IMG/VR virus record: IMGVR_UViG_3300028025_002789
Coordinates: 1 to 64,000 of that record
Direction: 5' to 3' (one strand)
DNA length: 64,000 nucleotides
DNA from: a virus
Part shown: in pieces, positions 6,860 through 31,488 of the stretch
How positions within the stretch are numbered: position 1 is the first letter of the stretch
Layout of the letters: every line of letters begins with the position of its first letter
Notes under the pieces: model-generated
Told to the model about the DNA's origin: nothing
Database searches by the model: none
Seen by the model: the letters and a program-made list of their open reading frames with translations, nothing else
Translations under genes and position numbers: made by a program

Positions 6860-7498
6860 ATGACATCAGGGTTAGTTGATCTAAGCATAGCTAATGAGTT
6901 TGTCGACATTCAGAAAATACTAAAACCACAGCTATCCATAGAGGTAGGTGCATTTGACGCAGAGTTTTCACTAATGATGCTAGATAAGAATATATGCGAG
7001 AATATCTATGCATACGAAGCATCTAAGGACGTATATAATAAATTTAAAGCTTCACTATCTGGAATTGACTATACGAACCTTGCGATAACTAATTATAGCG
7101 GAACGGCAACACTTGAAATTGATCCAGATGTTAATGCTTCAGATAACGGATCTAATGGAATTAAAAATAAGCGAGAAGTTAAAAAATATAACTATCTAGA
7201 GGTAGAGTGTAATAGTTTAGATAATCTCCATACATCTGATGAAACAAATTGTTTATGGATAGATGTCGAAGGGGCAAATAAGGAAGTTCTTCTTGGAGCA
7301 GAAAAATTGCTGGAAAATACAGATAGTCTTTTTATAGAAACTGAAACTCATAATTATTGGCAGGAACAGTGGCTGCATAATGATGTAGTTAATTATCTAG
7401 CTAAATACAATTTAACTTTTTATAAATGGAAGAAACAACACACTAGCCAATATAACTGCATATTCATTAAGGATGATCTAATAAGTTTAATATCCTAG
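6860..7498 (+). CDS. FkbM-family methyltransferase
   Basis: 212 aa. SAM-binding motif I is visible as SIEVGAFDAEFS (about residues 26-37), and the FkbM hallmark LWIDVEGANKEVLLGAEKLL lies near residues 131-150. The family O-methylates sugars or other small molecules; in phages it often accompanies glycosyltransferases, of which three occur in this window. RBS AAGGA lies 8 nt before the ATG, with TTGACT (6834-6839) further up. The substrate cannot be told from the sequence. Confidence 0.8.
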   Translation: MTSGLVDLSIANEFVDIQKILKPQLSIEVGAFDAEFSLMMLDKNICENIYAYEASKDVYNKFKASLSGIDYTNLAITNYSGTATLEIDPDVNASDNGSNGIKNKREVKKYNYLEVECNSLDNLHTSDETNCLWIDVEGANKEVLLGAEKLLENTDSLFIETETHNYWQEQWLHNDVVNYLAKYNLTFYKWKKQHTSQYNCIFIKDDLISLIS

Positions 7499-10857: not shown

Positions 10858-11868
10858 GTGGAATTATCTTATTATACTATTAGAGCAGGACTTAACCCTT
10901 CTGTTGGATTTGGCTATGCGGGACAAAATATAGTTAATACGCTGCAGGAATTAGGACATACTGTTAAATTTGCAAGCCCTAAAGCTCCAGTACAGATAAA
11001 CTTTACTCAACCACATCATTTTAAATTACATAAAGGACAGTATCAAATTGGTTATACTCCTTGGGAATCTACTTTAATTAGACCTGAGTGGAGAGATATA
11101 TTTAATCAATGTGATGAAGTTTGGGCTACATCAGATTGGACGGCAGAAGTATATAAAAATAATGGAGTTACTAAACCTATCTATGTATACCCTCACGGAA
11201 TTGAATCTTTATGGAAACCATATAAAAGAATTTTACATCCAGGAAAACCACTTAAGTTTTTACATATAGGAGAACCATCACCTAGAAAAGATGGACAACT
11301 AGTTGTTGATACATTTATAAAATTATTCGGTAATAATCCAGAGTACCACTTAACAGTTAAATGCCATGGGTCATCAACCATTAGAATATACAACAACAGG
11401 AAAGAACTCGTATCTCCAGACTCAGTATATAGTAATATATCGATAATTAAAGAAGAGTACTCAATAGAACAGTTAGTACAGATTTATCATATGCACCACG
11501 TTCTTGTTTATCCAAGCTGGGGAGAAGGTTTTGGCTTTATTCCGCTTCAAGGATTAGCTACTGGAATGCCAGTAATTTCAACTTATGATTGGGCTCATTA
11601 TCAGAAGTTTTTGGGGCCATTGAAGTTAAGGTCAAAACTAACAGATGCTTCAATTGACGGGGTTCCAAAAGCTGTTGGCGACGCACACCTAGGAAGTTTT
11701 TATCAGCCAGACAAGGATCACCTATCTGATCAAATGGTTGATGCAGCAATTAATTTTAAAGCCTACTCTTCATATTACTTTGCACAGGCTCAAAAAATAC
11801 ATGATGAGTATAACTGGAAAAATTTAACCACACAGGCATTTAGTAATATATTTGATAAATTCTCTTGA
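10858..11868 (+). CDS. GT4-type glycosyltransferase
   Basis: 336 aa with GTG start (10858), weak RBS AGAAAG. GT-B fold signs: an N-terminal GFGYAGQNI glycine loop, the PHGI linker near residue 120, FLHIGEPSPRKDG at about 140, and the nucleotide-sugar site PSWGEGFGFIPLQGLATGMP near residues 220-240. Transfers a sugar from a nucleotide donor; acceptors in phages are DNA bases, virion proteins or host surface glycans. Faces another glycosyltransferase two genes downstream. Confidence 0.85.
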   Translation: MELSYYTIRAGLNPSVGFGYAGQNIVNTLQELGHTVKFASPKAPVQINFTQPHHFKLHKGQYQIGYTPWESTLIRPEWRDIFNQCDEVWATSDWTAEVYKNNGVTKPIYVYPHGIESLWKPYKRILHPGKPLKFLHIGEPSPRKDGQLVVDTFIKLFGNNPEYHLTVKCHGSSTIRIYNNRKELVSPDSVYSNISIIKEEYSIEQLVQIYHMHHVLVYPSWGEGFGFIPLQGLATGMPVISTYDWAHYQKFLGPLKLRSKLTDASIDGVPKAVGDAHLGSFYQPDKDHLSDQMVDAAINFKAYSSYYFAQAQKIHDEYNWKNLTTQAFSNIFDKFS

Positions 11869-12263: not shown

Positions 12264-13001
12264 ATGAGCGTCGAGGCGGAACAAGAAATAACCTTAACAC
12301 CAATACCACATTATGATGTAGTTATATGTACTCCAGGTAGTAGTATGACAAACTCATATATTTCTAGCTTATTAAATACAATTCAAGCTTTAAACTCAAT
12401 GGGAATTTCTTGGAAATATCAAAATGAATATACTTCAATAGTTGCAACAGCAAGAGAAGGGACAATTGCTGACACTATGAACTTCCAGGTAGATACAAAC
12501 AAACCTGGTCTTGGCAAGTATACATATAATAAAATTTTTATGATTGACTCTGATATTTCATGGGATGTAGATTCATTTTTAAAGTTATATAATTCTGAAG
12601 AAAATATAGTTTCTGGATGTTACTCTGTAATACAATACGAATATATTGCAGCATTTAAATCAATACATGATGGTGTTCCAATTAATTATAATGAAATTAA
12701 AAATGAAGAGTCTTTGATTGAAGTTGGGTCGGTAGGTCTAGGATTTTGTTGTGTAAAAAGTGGAGTATTTGAATCTATTTCAAGGCCATGGTTTTTTTAC
12801 CCAGTTATTCCATATACTGCGGAAGATGGATCTACAATGCAGTCTCCAAATTTTTCAGAAGACACGGCTATTTGCTACAAATGGGTAAATGAGGGAAATA
12901 ACAAGATTATGCTAGATGCTAAAGTAACGGTAACTCATAATAAAATATTTGGATTTAACCTAGATTATTTAAAAAACAAAAACTCTAAAGATGAAGTATA
13001 G
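12264..13001 (+). CDS. GT-A-type glycosyltransferase
   Basis: 245 aa. Opens with VVICTPGSSMTNSYISSLL, a nucleotide-binding beta strand and loop, and carries the metal-binding DxD-type motif IDSDISWD near residues 94-101. This fits GT2-like (GT-A) enzymes. Later NFSEDTAICYKW resembles the catalytic 'ED' segment. The acceptor is unknown; with the GT4 enzyme and FkbM methyltransferase it may build a modified sugar. Confidence 0.75.
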   Translation: MSVEAEQEITLTPIPHYDVVICTPGSSMTNSYISSLLNTIQALNSMGISWKYQNEYTSIVATAREGTIADTMNFQVDTNKPGLGKYTYNKIFMIDSDISWDVDSFLKLYNSEENIVSGCYSVIQYEYIAAFKSIHDGVPINYNEIKNEESLIEVGSVGLGFCCVKSGVFESISRPWFFYPVIPYTAEDGSTMQSPNFSEDTAICYKWVNEGNNKIMLDAKVTVTHNKIFGFNLDYLKNKNSKDEV

Positions 13002-25045: not shown

Positions 25046-26473
25046 ATGCCATCAACATATCATTTATATCAAAGATACGGATTAATCTCACCAACCGAGA
25101 CTGGTACTGGGGTATATGCAATGTGCAAATATTTACCATCACCAGTAATTCAACAAGGAATTACAAACGCTGTTTACGCATTTGATGCTACCGCAGACTA
25201 TTCAACATTTTCTCCAACTGGAGCAGTATCGTACTACGACGCTCAATTTGGAATGGTTGGAGTAGGCTCAACTCGTGTAATTCTAGATGGATCTTCTCCT
25301 ACACCAAATATTAAAATACCAAGCTCATCTTACTATGACACTGGAGTGGTTACATATAAAACAGCATCTGTATATGTTTGGAGCGAATTCGCACTTCAAA
25401 TTAGATTAGATTTAAACTTACAAGATGCTTCTAATAATTCTGTAGGCGGAACAGATAGCACAACAGTAACTCTTACTCCTTATAAATGGACAAGAATTGA
25501 AACTATTTCAACTGCAAATGCTCAAAAAGTTCTAGCAACATTAAATGTATTAAATTTTAATTCTGCAACAGACACAGGAAAAATATTTTATATGGACTGT
25601 GTTCAAATTGAAAATCAAAGATGGTCGACTTCTTTTATGAATCAGCCAACTAGAGTTCAGACAGATATAACATTTACTGTTCCAAGATTGGGCCCAGACT
25701 ATACTGTAACTGGATGGGCAAAAATGGGAAGACATACAACTACCGTAGCTGGAGGCTCAGCACCATTTTTTACATTATATAATGGCGCCACAGACTATGC
25801 AACAATGCGGTATGTAGAAGGAACTACAAAAGTTCAAGCTTTTAAAGACGATACTGATCCAAATACAGATTTCTCTACAACAAACTTTGACTTAAACCCA
25901 TCAGACCTTGTATTTTTTGCATTAGTTAATGATGGATTAACAATGACAATGTACGTAGCAAAAACTGGGGACTCATCTTTAACCACAGCAAATCAAGCAA
26001 CAGATTTTAGCGTATTTAACACAATTTATATTGGAAGAGATACTGCTTCAAATTATTTAAATGGACCAGTAGAAAATTTATTAATTCATAAAAAAGCACT
26101 AAGTTCATCAGATATTTTAGCTATTTTTAATAGTGCAAATTCTTATGATTATGCTTCAACTCAGGATATAATTTTTTCATACGCCACACCATCTACAACT
26201 GGAACCAGCAAAGCCCTTGCATATACAGGGACTGGGTACCTTAGATATAAGAATGTTACCGCATCTTTAGATATTATTCCAGCAACTGGAATGGCGTCTA
26301 ATTCTTTAGTTGGATCATCTACACATCTAGTTTATGGAGATGACGTAGAGGAGTTAGAGCTCTACGGACAGATTGCAACATCAACTAATTTAACAACAGC
26401 AACACTCTATACAGTAGATCAAATAATTGATGTACCAGGAATTGGAAGAACTGCTTTCGTAACTAAGCAGTAA
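25046..26473 (+). CDS. LamG-type adhesin (475 aa)
   Basis: RBS AAGGAG. N-terminal jelly-roll with FYMDCVQIENQRWSTSF. A LamG/concanavalin-like domain spans about residues 215-370: DYTVTGWAKM, then LNGPVENLLIHKKALSSSDI at its end, the diagnostic closing strand of LamG folds. These bind glycans, so the protein probably recognises host surface polysaccharide. A small C-terminal domain follows. Confidence 0.8.
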   Translation: MPSTYHLYQRYGLISPTETGTGVYAMCKYLPSPVIQQGITNAVYAFDATADYSTFSPTGAVSYYDAQFGMVGVGSTRVILDGSSPTPNIKIPSSSYYDTGVVTYKTASVYVWSEFALQIRLDLNLQDASNNSVGGTDSTTVTLTPYKWTRIETISTANAQKVLATLNVLNFNSATDTGKIFYMDCVQIENQRWSTSFMNQPTRVQTDITFTVPRLGPDYTVTGWAKMGRHTTTVAGGSAPFFTLYNGATDYATMRYVEGTTKVQAFKDDTDPNTDFSTTNFDLNPSDLVFFALVNDGLTMTMYVAKTGDSSLTTANQATDFSVFNTIYIGRDTASNYLNGPVENLLIHKKALSSSDILAIFNSANSYDYASTQDIIFSYATPSTTGTSKALAYTGTGYLRYKNVTASLDIIPATGMASNSLVGSSTHLVYGDDVEELELYGQIATSTNLTTATLYTVDQIIDVPGIGRTAFVTKQ

Positions 26474-26481
26474 GGAGAACT

Positions 26482-26664
26482 ATGATTAATTATATTTGGG
26501 CAACAGAAGATACGCTCAAGCGTTATAACGAAGACGGAACACACTCCTTTGTTAGCAAAGAAGATTCAGATTACTTAGAGTGGTCTTCATCTGGAAATAC
26601 AGCTCAGGACACAGATGAAGCATTGTCAACAACAGAAACAGAGCCATCTCCAAACCATATTTAA
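26482..26664 (+). CDS. small fibre-associated protein (60 aa)
   Basis: RBS AAGGAG before the ATG. MINYIWATEDTLKRYNEDGT followed by an acidic, Ser/Thr-rich tail. Position after an adhesin, like the 98-aa and 75-aa proteins at 21397 and 33111, suggests an assembly or capping role. Confidence 0.55.
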   Translation: MINYIWATEDTLKRYNEDGTHSFVSKEDSDYLEWSSSGNTAQDTDEALSTTETEPSPNHI

Positions 26665-26702: not shown

Positions 26703-28277
26703 TTGCCAAAGCTAAAAAAAATAACTATTGTCGGCGGAGGATCTGCTGGCTGGATGTCTGCTGCTACGCTTATATCAAATTTTCCACAATATGAAATTTC
26801 ATTAATAGAAAGTCCAGAAATACCTAGAATTGGTGTTGGAGAAAGCACACAACAAAAGATAGCGGTATGGGCTAAAAATATTGGTATTAGCCATAAAGAC
26901 TTTATGGAAAAAACTGATGCTTCCTATAAATTTAGCATTAGGTTTAAAGATTTTAATCATGTTGGAGATGACGGATTTCATTATCCATTCGGCAGTATAC
27001 ATTTAGGAAACACAAATAAAGGCACAAATGAATGGGCTTTAAAAAAAATAAAATATCCAGAAACACCTAATTCTGATTTTGCAGACTGTTTTTTTCCACA
27101 AATGTCTTTAATACATAATAACACAATCAGTGAAAATAAGTATAATGTTTTTGAAGAATTTAATTTTGAAAATGAGCATGCATACCATTTTGATGCGATT
27201 AAGTTCGCTAACTGGCTTGCCGAAAATTTTGCAAAACCAAAAGGCGTTCATCATATATTAGCTACAGTTACTAAAGTAAATGTTGATGAAAATGGCGTAT
27301 CATCATTAGAGTTAGACAATGGAGATATTGTAGAGTCTGATCTATATATAGATTGCACTGGTTTTAAAGCATTATTAATATCAGAATCTTTAAAAGAAGA
27401 ATTTATAGACTATTCAAAAGGATTGCCATGCAATAGGGCTTGGGCAGTTCAAATTCCATATGTAGACAAAGAAAAAGAAATTGAAAATTATACAAACTGT
27501 ACAGCTCTAGGATATGGTTGGGTTTGGAACACACCGCTTTATTCTAGAATAGGAACGGGGTATGTTTATTCAGATAAATTTACTACACCAGAAGCAGCCT
27601 TAGAAGAATTTAAAGAATACTTAAAAAATAAAATAGACCCCATTCATGCTCCAGAAAGAATTACTGATGATTTAAAATTTAACGATGTTAGATTTAAAAC
27701 AGGAATCCATAAAAAGCTTTGGTCTAAAAATGTTGTCGCAATTGGGCTTTCCGCTGGATTCATAGAACCACTTGAAAGCAATGGCCTATACACAGTTCAT
27801 GAATTTTTAAATATTTTATCAAAATCTATTAATAAAGGCTACTATAATGAAATTGATAGAAAAGGATTTAATCATATTACTAGAAGAATATTTGAATCAT
27901 TTTTTCAGTTTGTTCAATTGCATTATAGCCTTAGCCAAAGAGATGACACAGAGTTTTGGAAATATATGACGGAGCAGGATATAGGCATAGTAGATAATTT
28001 TGACTCTACAAGAGAATTTAACAAACAGAGAATGATTGATTCAGAATATAAAGAAACTGGACCAATGTGTGTTGCTTATGGACATGGCGTAGTTCCTTTA
28101 GGAACAGAAGAGATAATTCAATATAATGATGTTTCTAATGAAGACTTAGACACCACTGTTTCTGGTTTTATATTTAAAACAAATAAATCTATTGAAAAAT
28201 GGAATAATGAAGCTAAAGACTCTATGTCTCATTACCAATATTTAAAAAAGAATTTTCATTATATGGATAAGGAGTAA
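26703..28277 (+). CDS. flavin-dependent halogenase-like oxygenase (524 aa)
   Basis: TTG start at 26703 (KLKKITIV follows at once); GAAAG lies upstream. FAD site GGGSAGWM (11-18). GVGESTQQ (44-51) and the region with Lys76 (ASYKFSIRF) align with the catalytic-lysine segment of PrnA/RebH. GWVWNTP (272-278) stands for the WxWxIP signature, and FIEPLESNG (353-361) for the EPLESTG halide/Glu site, so the expected Thr is Asn360. The family adds Cl, Br or I to an activated ring via hypohalous acid and a Lys haloamine; a cyanophage member (VirX1) is known to iodinate. It needs host reduced flavin. It sits inside the fibre array, and its substrate is unknown. Confidence 0.85.
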   Translation: MPKLKKITIVGGGSAGWMSAATLISNFPQYEISLIESPEIPRIGVGESTQQKIAVWAKNIGISHKDFMEKTDASYKFSIRFKDFNHVGDDGFHYPFGSIHLGNTNKGTNEWALKKIKYPETPNSDFADCFFPQMSLIHNNTISENKYNVFEEFNFENEHAYHFDAIKFANWLAENFAKPKGVHHILATVTKVNVDENGVSSLELDNGDIVESDLYIDCTGFKALLISESLKEEFIDYSKGLPCNRAWAVQIPYVDKEKEIENYTNCTALGYGWVWNTPLYSRIGTGYVYSDKFTTPEAALEEFKEYLKNKIDPIHAPERITDDLKFNDVRFKTGIHKKLWSKNVVAIGLSAGFIEPLESNGLYTVHEFLNILSKSINKGYYNEIDRKGFNHITRRIFESFFQFVQLHYSLSQRDDTEFWKYMTEQDIGIVDNFDSTREFNKQRMIDSEYKETGPMCVAYGHGVVPLGTEEIIQYNDVSNEDLDTTVSGFIFKTNKSIEKWNNEAKDSMSHYQYLKKNFHYMDKE

Positions 28278-28278
28278 T

Positions 28279-28980
28279 ATGTCTAAAAAAATAGTATTTA
28301 CAAATGTTCCTACAATGCTAGTTTCAGAAGAATACTTTCCGTCTCCAGCCTCTAAATATTTACCAGAGTGGTATAAAAAAACTAATTCATACTATAACGA
28401 TAAAAAAATGCCACAACAAATTACTATTAAAAAATGTATTCCCGTATTTGATGTTTTATCAATGGGCTATTATATTTTACTAGCACGGGATGTTTTTATA
28501 GAAAATGGAAAAAATGGAATGCCACCAGTCATACATGACGCTGAACCAGATTTTAATAAGTACCCTATAATTAGTACACATGAGTTTGAGCAAGCCCCAT
28601 TTCACCCTTATCCAAAGTTTCACAATAAAATTTTAAAGTGGACCAATCAATTTAGCATTAAAACTGAACCAGGATATAGCTGCTATTTTACAACCCCTCC
28701 CCATCAGGATCTGCCATTTTTAAATTTCGATGGTGTTGTAGATACAGATCGCTACCATTCTCCAGTAAATATTCCATTTTCTATAGATCCAGATTTTGAA
28801 GGATTAATTGAATCTGGAACACCAATTATTCATGTAGTACCATTCAAGAGAGATTCTTTTAAGATGGAAATAGGATCTGAAAAAGAATTGAATTTAGAAA
28901 AAAAGCAAGAACTTAGGCTTCATTCAAAAATATTTGATAGATATAAATCTATGTTTTGGATAAAAAAGGAATACAAGTAA
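28279..28980 (+). CDS. DUF6065-like protein (233 aa)
   Basis: Follows the halogenase by one nucleotide. Pattern GYSCYFTTPPHQDLPFLNFD ... GVVDTDRYHSPVNIPF ... GTPIIHVVPFKRDSF matches, as far as I recall, the DUF6065 family found in cyanophage genomes near modification genes. Function unknown. The conserved His, Asp and Arg residues suggest an enzyme; this is inference. Confidence 0.65.
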   Translation: MSKKIVFTNVPTMLVSEEYFPSPASKYLPEWYKKTNSYYNDKKMPQQITIKKCIPVFDVLSMGYYILLARDVFIENGKNGMPPVIHDAEPDFNKYPIISTHEFEQAPFHPYPKFHNKILKWTNQFSIKTEPGYSCYFTTPPHQDLPFLNFDGVVDTDRYHSPVNIPFSIDPDFEGLIESGTPIIHVVPFKRDSFKMEIGSEKELNLEKKQELRLHSKIFDRYKSMFWIKKEYK

Positions 28981-29279
28981 TGAAGAATAAAAATCGCATG
29001 GAATGGGTTATAGCCCTTAAAACAATGGGGCATAAAGAATATTGGAATAGAGCAAACACCGTTGAGTTTTTTGCATTTGTTGCCAAGGCAGCTATTATTA
29101 TCCCAGGACTTATATTTGATGTAAGCATCTGGTGGTTCTACATATTTGCCTTAGTTTCAAGTCTTGGGCTTATTTGGTCATCTACCGTTAAAACCATTCC
29201 CACTCTTATTTGGTTTAATATTCTATGGAGTACTCTAGCAATAGCTTATATAGCTAAGCACTTTGGACTTATCCTTTAA
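28980..29279 (+). CDS. membrane protein (99 aa)
   Basis: ATG at 28980 overlaps the previous stop. About three hydrophobic segments between residues 20 and 95 (AAIIIPGLIFDVSIWWFYIF, VSSLGLIWSSTV, WFNILWSTLAIAYIA). Function unknown. Membrane placement beside a halogenase and glycosyltransferase might indicate modification of an envelope component. Confidence 0.7.
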   Translation: MKNKNRMEWVIALKTMGHKEYWNRANTVEFFAFVAKAAIIIPGLIFDVSIWWFYIFALVSSLGLIWSSTVKTIPTLIWFNILWSTLAIAYIAKHFGLIL

Positions 29280-29280
29280 A

Positions 29281-30339
29281 ATGCGTTTTCATGTGGTTAG
29301 TCTTCCACATACTCAAACGACTAAAGAGTATGTCAATTGTGCCTTTACTGAAAAAGTAAGGCGCTTTTGTCTTATGATGAAAGACTTAGGGCATGAAGTT
29401 TACCTATATGCTGGAGAAGAAAATGAAGCCCCATGCGATGAACTAATTACCTGTATATCTAATCAAGAAAGAATTGATGGTCTAGCAGGAAAACATTTTA
29501 CATCAGCTTCGTTTGATATTGCCCAGCCTTTCTGGGATAAATTTTTAAATACCGTAATAAAAGAAATGAGCCCACGACTTCAACAAAAAGATTTTATATG
29601 TTTAATTGGCGGTACATCTCATAAGCCAATAGCAGATGCATTTCCAGAACATATGTCAGTAGAGTTTGGAATAGGATACGGATCAACATTTGCAAAGTAT
29701 CGTGTGTGGGAATCCTACTCATGGATGCATTCATCATATGCTTCCTATAAAGATCCAACTAAAATAGATGGTTTATTTTATGACACGGTAATTCCAGGTT
29801 ATTTTGAACCAGAGATGTTTCCATTCCAGCCAAATAAAAAAGACTACTATCTTTATATTGGTAGAATGATAGAGCGAAAAGGTGTTGGAATAGCTTCAGA
29901 GATGTGTAAAGCAATTGGGGCTAAATTAATTATGGCGGGTCCTGGAGATTACATTCCTTCATATGGCGAATATATTGGACCAGTAGATTCAGATAAAAGA
30001 GCAGAACTAATGAGTAATGCAATTGCAGTTATTGCACCAACAACTTATATAGAACCATTTGGCAACATAGTTCCAGAGGCACATTTTTGTGGAACCCCAA
30101 CAATTACAACGGACTGGGGAGCATTTGTAGAAACAAATCCAAACGGAATAACTGGATATAGATGTAGAACCCTAGATGAATTTTGCAAAGCGGCAGAAGA
30201 TGTTAAGAAATTAAATCCTCAAATAATACATGATCGTGCAATGGCCATATACTCAGTAGACGTTATAAAATACAAGTATGACAAGTATTTTAAAGGCCTT
30301 TTAACCCTATGGGACCAAGGATGGTACACAAGATTATAA
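29281..30339 (+). CDS. GT4-type glycosyltransferase (352 aa)
   Basis: ATG at 29281 one base after the previous stop. GT-B fold: N-terminal FHVVSLPHTQTTKEYV, the donor-half opening YLYIGRMIERKG near residue 200, and the nucleotide-sugar motif EPFGNIVPEAHFCGTPTI at about residues 258-275, with the catalytic-type E-x7-E pair. Last gene of the halogenase cassette. Confidence 0.85.
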   Translation: MRFHVVSLPHTQTTKEYVNCAFTEKVRRFCLMMKDLGHEVYLYAGEENEAPCDELITCISNQERIDGLAGKHFTSASFDIAQPFWDKFLNTVIKEMSPRLQQKDFICLIGGTSHKPIADAFPEHMSVEFGIGYGSTFAKYRVWESYSWMHSSYASYKDPTKIDGLFYDTVIPGYFEPEMFPFQPNKKDYYLYIGRMIERKGVGIASEMCKAIGAKLIMAGPGDYIPSYGEYIGPVDSDKRAELMSNAIAVIAPTTYIEPFGNIVPEAHFCGTPTITTDWGAFVETNPNGITGYRCRTLDEFCKAAEDVKKLNPQIIHDRAMAIYSVDVIKYKYDKYFKGLLTLWDQGWYTRL

Positions 30340-30363: not shown

Positions 30364-31488
30364 ATGGCAACCACAGGTAAAGGTTTTCGATACCCAGATT
30401 ATTCAAACACTCCAGATGTCCCTAGAGACCTTGGATACCTTGCCGCAGACGTAGATACCTATTTAGGTACACACCCTGGCCCTACGGGCCCTACAGGCCC
30501 AACTGGACCCGCAGGAGCTACTGGTCCGTCAGGACCACAAGGTGCAATAGGAGTTACAGGCGCAACAGGTCCTACAGGACCAACTGGACCACAAGGCCCA
30601 CAAGGAACTGCAGTAACAATTTTAGGAACATATAATTCATTAGGTGAATTACAAACAGCCCATCCAACTGGAAGTGCTGGAGATGGATATTTAATTGGCG
30701 GAACGTTATATGTTTGGTCAGTAAGTACAACATCATGGGTAAATGTTGGAAACATTCAAGGACCAACGGGTGCAACAGGACCAACGGGTGCAACTGGTCC
30801 ACAAGGAGCTTCAGGTGCAGACTCAGTTGTTGCTGGACCAGCAGGACCAACTGGACCAGCGGGAGCAACAGGACCTTCAGGGCCACAAGGCATACAAGGA
30901 ATTCAAGGAGTATCTGGACCAACTGGACCAGTAGGAGCAAGCGGCCCAACAGGGCCATCAGGAGCAGACTCTACAGTTCCTGGTCCTACAGGACCAACAG
31001 GACCAGCAGGAGCCACAGGACCAACGGGACCAGCAGGAGAAGTAACACTACTTGGAGCACAGACACTTGTAGATAAAACATTAAATTATCCTACATTTTT
31101 ATCTGGTACAGAAACAGTAAATATAGTTGCTTCAGCAGCAACTGGAACAATTAACATTGATGCTGAAACATCAACAATTTATTATTATACTTCTGATGCA
31201 ACAGCAAATCATACTTTAAATTTTAGATATAATTCTTCTACATCATTATCTTCAAAGTTAAGTGTTGGAGAATCAATTACATTTGTGTGGATGAATACAA
31301 GTGGCGCAACAGCATATTACCCATCTGTCATTCAAGTTGATGGATCATCAATTACACCAAAGTGGCAAGGAGGAACTGCACCAACTGGAGGCAATACAAG
31401 CTCTGTAGATCTTTATACTTTTACCGTTTTAAAAACAACGGCTTCTCCAGCTTACGTAGTTCTTGGATCACAAACTAAGTTCGCATAG
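30364..31488 (+). CDS. collagen-like tail fibre (374 aa)
   Basis: N-terminus [20 protein letters not shown] is a fibre attachment motif. Two collagen-like Gly-X-Y tracts (about residues 39-81 and 131-231), rich in GPTGPT and GPQG, flank a small module [15 protein letters not shown] seen in many fibres. The C-terminal beta domain starts at [13 protein letters not shown]. Collagen tracts trimerise and stiffen fibres. Confidence 0.85.

Follow-up and report, generated by a model that had tools for sequence, protein, structure and literature searches.

A swappable halogenase and its obligate membrane protein partner in the tail-fibre array of an actinophage-type virus

The IMG/VR virus record IMGVR_UViG_3300028025_002789 is 97,728 bases long, and its bases 1–64,000 are the stretch analysed here (the window). 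Inside a tail-fibre array the window carries a gene for a flavin-dependent halogenase (HAL), followed by a DUF6065-like gene, a small membrane protein gene (MEM) and a GT4-type glycosyltransferase gene (GT). Close sister phages have exchanged HAL alleles here, with GT and the fibres left in place, and MEM is the obligate partner of HAL in the swappable cassette. The original prediction, which was made from the letters of the window and read all four genes as one tightly packed unit, missed this partner. As to function, we see about an even chance that HAL and MEM make up an exchangeable two-gene module in the variable end of the array of an actinophage, with HAL a working halogenase and MEM docking it at the membrane or forming a complex with it there.

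We read the same locus in two sister phages, G051 and G052 (portal 97.5% identical), and in a cousin, G055 (portal 91%). GT is 92–93% identical among the sister phages, including those with another HAL or without HAL. Downstream of the cassette the collagen-like gene (72–93%), the LamG gene (88–89%, where read) and the portal are conserved, and the Gly-rich gene is conserved in two of the phages. The gene set upstream of GT consists of HAL, the DUF6065-like gene and MEM in the window, of HAL and MEM plus an 84-amino-acid (aa) gene in G051 and G052, and, in G055, of nothing but the 84-aa gene and a DUF6065 gene in reverse orientation; the LamG adhesin upstream of the cassette also varies between the sister phages. 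At a portal identity of 97.5%, HAL is only 47–48% and MEM 51–54% identical between the window and its sisters, and the HAL proteins of the window, G051 and G052 (47–55% pairwise identity) fall into different subclades of the tree. Because GT and the fibres are conserved while the HAL proteins diverge into different subclades, we conclude that HAL alleles were exchanged and that GT is a backbone gene. Of the four-gene unit first proposed, HAL with MEM held up and GT dropped out, since it stays near-constant while HAL is replaced and is present without HAL in G055.

The unbiased test of HAL–MEM pairing is the portal-matched set of 28 records: the two genes are together in 2 and both absent in 26 (2×2 table 2/0/0/26, Fisher p 0.0026). 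Loci selected by DUF6065 give 4/5/0/71 (p 8e-5). A PF04820 gene is found in 36/50 MEM records, and in 24/25 of those of at least 30 kb, compared with 2/28 portal-matched records. All 53 adjacent HAL–MEM pairs lie on the same strand and overlap or abut, and HAL leads in 30 of them, MEM in 23 (near-duplicates included). The pair occurs in at least three contexts: fibre arrays (the window, L001, L147, L151, L135), the replication module of a related freshwater-type group, with primase and SSB genes on either side (L035, L040, L044, L059, L063, L072 and others), and other sites (L002, L096, L103). No MEM was found at the replication site in the window record. MEM pairs with two deep halogenase clades, ES(N/T)G and EATS, and the literature searched held no description of the pair. 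In five further records (L036, L037, L047, L050, L108) a lone MEM has primase-like and SSB-like genes on its two sides; where records of this kind are longer, a halogenase is present elsewhere in them.

Several observations weigh against the two-gene module. One MEM record of 34.7 kb is without a halogenase, and the co-occurrence counts contain near-duplicate records. MEM is missing from 21 of the 22 records (many of them fragments) of marine cyanophage-like halogenase viruses, the exception being a truncated MEM beside the halogenase. In the window itself the DUF6065-like gene separates HAL from MEM. Finally, the structural model of MEM is only moderately confident (predicted local distance difference test, pLDDT, 72) and has no significant resemblance to solved structures. 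The dependence is one-way: MEM goes with HAL, and the HAL of other viruses presumably works without MEM.

MEM is a previously undescribed, virus-only membrane protein. We drew its family from IMG/VR, where 290 stretches passed, of which 80 were kept (L035–L114); at the sensitivity of the tools used, no relatives were found in 50,697 phage records or in 84,980 species (one genome each). A host origin of MEM was considered and rejected, the genome scan having yielded no relative. The model has one short and three long helices, and the fold search gave nothing significant, just weak 3-helix SemiSWEET/MPC look-alikes. The protein is rich in tryptophan (seven of its roughly 98 residues are conserved Trp, or 7.1%), has residues that are invariant across the family, and is under purifying selection, with a ratio of nonsynonymous to synonymous substitution (dN/dS) of 0.04–0.07.

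HAL is an intact enzyme under selection and, to judge by its motifs and family, very probably a working halogenase. The profile search bears out its original assignment as a flavin-dependent halogenase, the best matches being flavin halogenase families: Pfam Trp_halogenase PF04820 (E 6.1e-107, 358.7 bits against a cut-off of 21, profile positions 1–452 of 458) and phrog_2928 (E 5.7e-146). The closest solved relative in the PDB is VirX1 (6qgm, 9.8e-92). The predicted active-site features are also there. The GxGxxG loop that binds flavin adenine dinucleotide (FAD) reads GGGSAGW (residues 11–17), Lys76 is kept (K in 72/73 viral relatives), and so is Glu355 (E in all 73). Both tryptophans of the predicted WxWxIP motif, W273 and W275, are kept with the Pro; the Ile is not, since the motif reads WVWNTP, with Thr for Ile, and is thus WxWxxP. 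dN/dS is 0.04–0.16 in all sampled pairs of relatives except one, at 0.78.

HAL carries ESNG where VirX1 has ESTG and Thal ESSG, so the Thr/Ser that is typical of the halide site, though not universal, is absent and Asn stands at position 360, as originally noted. This Asn is what speaks for a HAL that has lost halogenation, its halide site blocked, and that now serves as some other FAD oxidase or as a binding protein. We give that idea hardly any credence: all other motif residues are kept through the clade, and the Asn is constant across divergent, selected sequences. In PrnA and RebH, moreover, it is mostly backbone amides that hold the halide. Asn occupies the equivalent position in 24/73 distinct viral relatives (21 ESNG, 3 EGNG) versus 1/120 cellular ones. 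Since so many viral relatives have it, Asn360 reads as a signature of the phage clade and not as decay, and a broken site was rejected on the same ground. In the tree the Asn rows group inside a clade that also holds VirX1; this VirX1-type clade (36-row set; SH-aLRT branch support 98) stands apart from the cellular enzymes except for one bacterial member. That member (L281:5986-7587) is the sole cellular Asn-type halogenase found, lies on a chromosome-like contig of a Deltaproteobacteria metagenome-assembled genome and was probably acquired from a phage.

According to the reading we favour, HAL and MEM would have been inserted, along with the DUF6065 gene, at the variable end of the tail-fibre array. 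HAL would bind FADH2 supplied by a host flavin reductase, make hypohalous acid and hand it on via Lys76, and would halogenate an electron-rich aromatic group (Cl, Br or I) with Glu355 assisting, as its family suggests; no flavin reductase of family PF01613 was found in the window phage record. MEM, most likely translationally coupled to HAL, would dock HAL at the host membrane or form a complex with it, and HAL would thereby meet its substrate at the membrane or cell envelope. The swapping of HAL alleles at the site fits a target that varies between hosts. The two proteins may even form a dedicated halogenation system in which the Trp-rich MEM is perhaps itself the substrate of the Trp-type HAL, so that a halogenated membrane protein results, or in which it is the host membrane or envelope that is halogenated during infection; this we find rather doubtful. 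Among targets we rank modification of the membrane or envelope via MEM first and a fibre protein second, and consider a glycan unlikely.

A fibre target would mean that HAL halogenates Tyr or Trp side chains in the tail fibres of its own phage and belongs, with DUF6065 and 2-oxoglutarate (2OG)-Fe(II) oxygenases, to a set of fibre-modifying enzymes found at fibre loci. In cyanophages the placement of halogenases at fibre loci is recurrent, not universal: in Syn10, P-RSM6, S-RIM44, P-TIM40, S-WAM1, Sf-CH11 and S-CREM1 tail-fibre or collagen-like genes immediately precede the halogenase, and 2OG-Fe(II) oxygenases mostly follow it; in S-B64 and HTVC008M it lies away from the fibres. In Syn10 (HQ634191; L031:6998-10875) VirX1 has an Asn-type halogenase on one side and a DUF6065-like gene on the other, with fibre-type genes immediately ahead, and this native context suggests fibres or a shared target. 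The sister actinophages L001, L147, L151 and L135 carry HAL, MEM and the DUF6065-like gene in fibre arrays, and the very distant halogenase of Actinomycetia phage DSL-LC01 likewise follows collagen-like genes. Pulling the other way are the halogenases of S-B64 and HTVC008M, the HAL–MEM pair in the replication module of the related freshwater-type group, the partial synteny by descent of the cyanophage loci, which are hence not independent, and the fact that fibre modification needs no membrane partner. A composition-based test put fibres within three genes of 19/60 halogenases; it has no proper background and was not used as statistics. This half of the target first proposed, a fibre or a surface glycan, is one we hold as a tentative possibility.

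The likeness of HAL to VirX1 (41% identical) extends to the PF04820 clade, the FAD loop, the Lys, the W-x-W, the Glu and the fibre locus by a DUF6065-like gene; unlike HAL, VirX1 comes from a cyanophage, has Thr at 360 and has no MEM partner. CPUG_00132 of Syn10, directly upstream of VirX1, shares the Asn360 type with HAL (44% identical), but it is uncharacterised, lacks MEM and has a loose position in the tree, outside the main Asn group. PrnA, RebH and Thal share the family and its motifs; they have Thr/Ser at the halide site and are single soluble enzymes of antibiotic gene clusters with no membrane partner. The halogenase of DSL-LC01, already published (PMC10611076), is also from a freshwater actinophage and lies near collagen-like fibre genes and an annotated glycosyltransferase, yet it is only 22% identical to HAL and lacks GVGES, the second Trp and MEM. 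This very divergent gene (L362:5989-7560), beside collagen-like genes, is possibly no halogenase any more. For a protein target there is precedent: the brominases and halogenases of ribosomally synthesised and post-translationally modified peptides (RiPPs) include flavin enzymes that modify Trp residues in peptides (PMC10858898, PMC10286304). These RiPP enzymes are flavin-dependent and take protein-bound Trp, which favours the fibre idea; unlike HAL, they are leader-guided and have no link to phages or fibres.

The prnA gene of cyanophages has been supposed to protect the host via an antibiotic, which is the usual guess (PMC2984593; PMC9964418), or to serve capsule decoration or a secondary metabolite (PMC7824862). 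By analogy HAL could be an auxiliary metabolic gene whose product halogenates a free small aromatic such as tryptophan, indole or a host pigment precursor, for example to yield a protective antibiotic. In vitro VirX1 does accept diverse small aromatics, with iodide as the preferred halide (PMC8407142). No biosynthetic partner genes lie beside HAL, however; its constant neighbour is a membrane protein, and its alleles are exchanged at a fibre-array site. We consider this explanation unlikely.

The glycan target of the original prediction was drawn from the neighbouring GT. GT does adjoin the cassette downstream, and DSL-LC01 has an annotated glycosyltransferase after its halogenase. The prediction is not supported by the comparison of sister phages, in which GT is vertically conserved and present where HAL is absent, and BLASTP found no similarity between the DSL-LC01 glycosyltransferase and the GT of the window. 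Glycans, furthermore, have no electron-rich aromatic ring. That HAL and GT together modify a fibre or host surface glycan is thus very improbable. Other genes resembling FkbM methyltransferases or glycosyltransferases, recognised by eye, lie away from the cassette (window 6860-7498, 10858-11868 and 12264-13001; L195:9392-10141), and in sister phage G051 a glycosyltransferase-like gene before the halogenase (L277:7577-8233) is 35% identical to window 12264-13001.

The DUF6065-like gene is a frequent neighbour of HAL and is not specific to it; a role as HAL-specific partner was rejected, 17/28 portal-matched records having a DUF6065 gene without HAL. The label itself needs qualifying: the window protein matches PF19541 below threshold (E 0.0062, 16.5 bits, cut-off 26.6), and 31/53 aligned relatives match DUF6065 at E ≤ 0.01. 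Its AlphaFold2 model (pLDDT 93) has a predicted dUTPase-like beta-clip fold. In a Foldseek search against the PDB all 50 matches listed belong to the dUTPase/dCTP deaminase superfamily (E 1.8e-4, probability 1.00), with query-normalised template modelling scores of just about 0.25–0.41. Weak profile matches to dUTPase agree with this fold, and the S-CREM1 homologue is annotated as a triphosphate nucleotidohydrolase. GVVDTD and a G-x-P stretch are in register with dUTPase motifs 3 and 4, and the motif 3 Asp is kept; unlike in dUTPase, the RS of motif 2 and the Arg of motif 4 are replaced by invariant Pro. Because these phosphate-binding residues are replaced, dUTP hydrolysis appears unlikely, and the protein is probably a binding protein of dUTPase-like fold. 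No paper mentioning the family was found in the literature searched. Relatives are present in 49 records of archaeal viruses; two were read, the haloarchaeal viruses HJTV-2 and HF2 (L027, L028), and there the gene lies near adhesin/fibre and tail genes, on the opposite strand. In two marine T4-like contigs (L010:4885-7006, L015:4005-6051) three DUF6065-type genes stand in tandem, with halogenases and probable 2OG oxygenases on their flanks, and L001 (9870-10592) encodes, between MEM and DUF6065, a further DUF6065-like protein that is very diverged and has relatives in several loci.

The window comes from a virus of aquatic actinobacteria. As was first proposed, its genome is of the actinophage type: the portal protein shares 60% identity with that of phages of the Streptomyces phage BillNye type, both have the gene order transglycosylase, glycosyltransferase, ribonucleotide reductase and so on to portal (the window genes were named by eye), and at 83873-84184 of the record there is a WhiB-like gene, also recognised by eye. 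Between reductase and portal are about 20 kb of adhesin and fibre genes, and the halogenase lies inside that stretch, as predicted, with a LamG adhesin upstream and collagen-like, Gly-rich and LamG-type genes downstream. All four predicted genes are found at their predicted positions on the plus strand (Table 1), the membrane protein gene and the GT4-type glycosyltransferase being real genes; GT more likely starts at ATG 29281, as its relatives open with MRFHVV. No structured RNA was found in 20–38 kb of the window, and a promoter scan of the window gave no signal clearly above chance.

Table 1. Coordinates of the cassette and adjoining features in the window
Feature	Position	Strand	Remarks
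LamG-domain adhesin upstream of the cassette	25046..26473	+	PF13385; other genes at this position in G051/G052
Short open reading frame between upstream adhesin and HAL	26482..26664	+	60 aa; gene type common between fibre genes
Flavin-dependent halogenase HAL, VirX1 group, Asn360 type	26703..28277	+	524 aa, TTG start; PF04820, phrog_2928, motifs
Codon of Lys76 (catalytic)	26928..26930	+	K in 72/73 viral relatives
Codon of Asn360	27780..27782	+	Thr in VirX1, Ser in Thal at same place
DUF6065-like gene	28279..28980	+	233 aa; phrog_7084, sub-threshold PF19541
Membrane protein gene MEM	28980..29279	+	About 98 aa; ATG 28980 overlaps TAA of DUF6065-like gene
GT4-type glycosyltransferase GT, backbone gene	29281..30339	+	phrog_3408 7.5e-82, PF00534
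Collagen-like fibre gene downstream of the cassette	30364..31488	+	PF01391 2.3e-17, phrog_5073 tail fibre

Tryptophan halogenases of phages have been on record since 2010 or earlier, and one of them, VirX1, is of use as a biocatalyst. What is new here is an exchangeable halogenase allele with an obligate membrane partner, together with a fold proposed for the DUF6065 family. The system offers three handles: a membrane partner that can be co-expressed with HAL; near-identical phages that form a natural series, with different halogenase alleles exchanged at one locus; and VirX1 itself, whose neighbours in a fibre locus are a halogenase paralogue and a DUF6065 gene.

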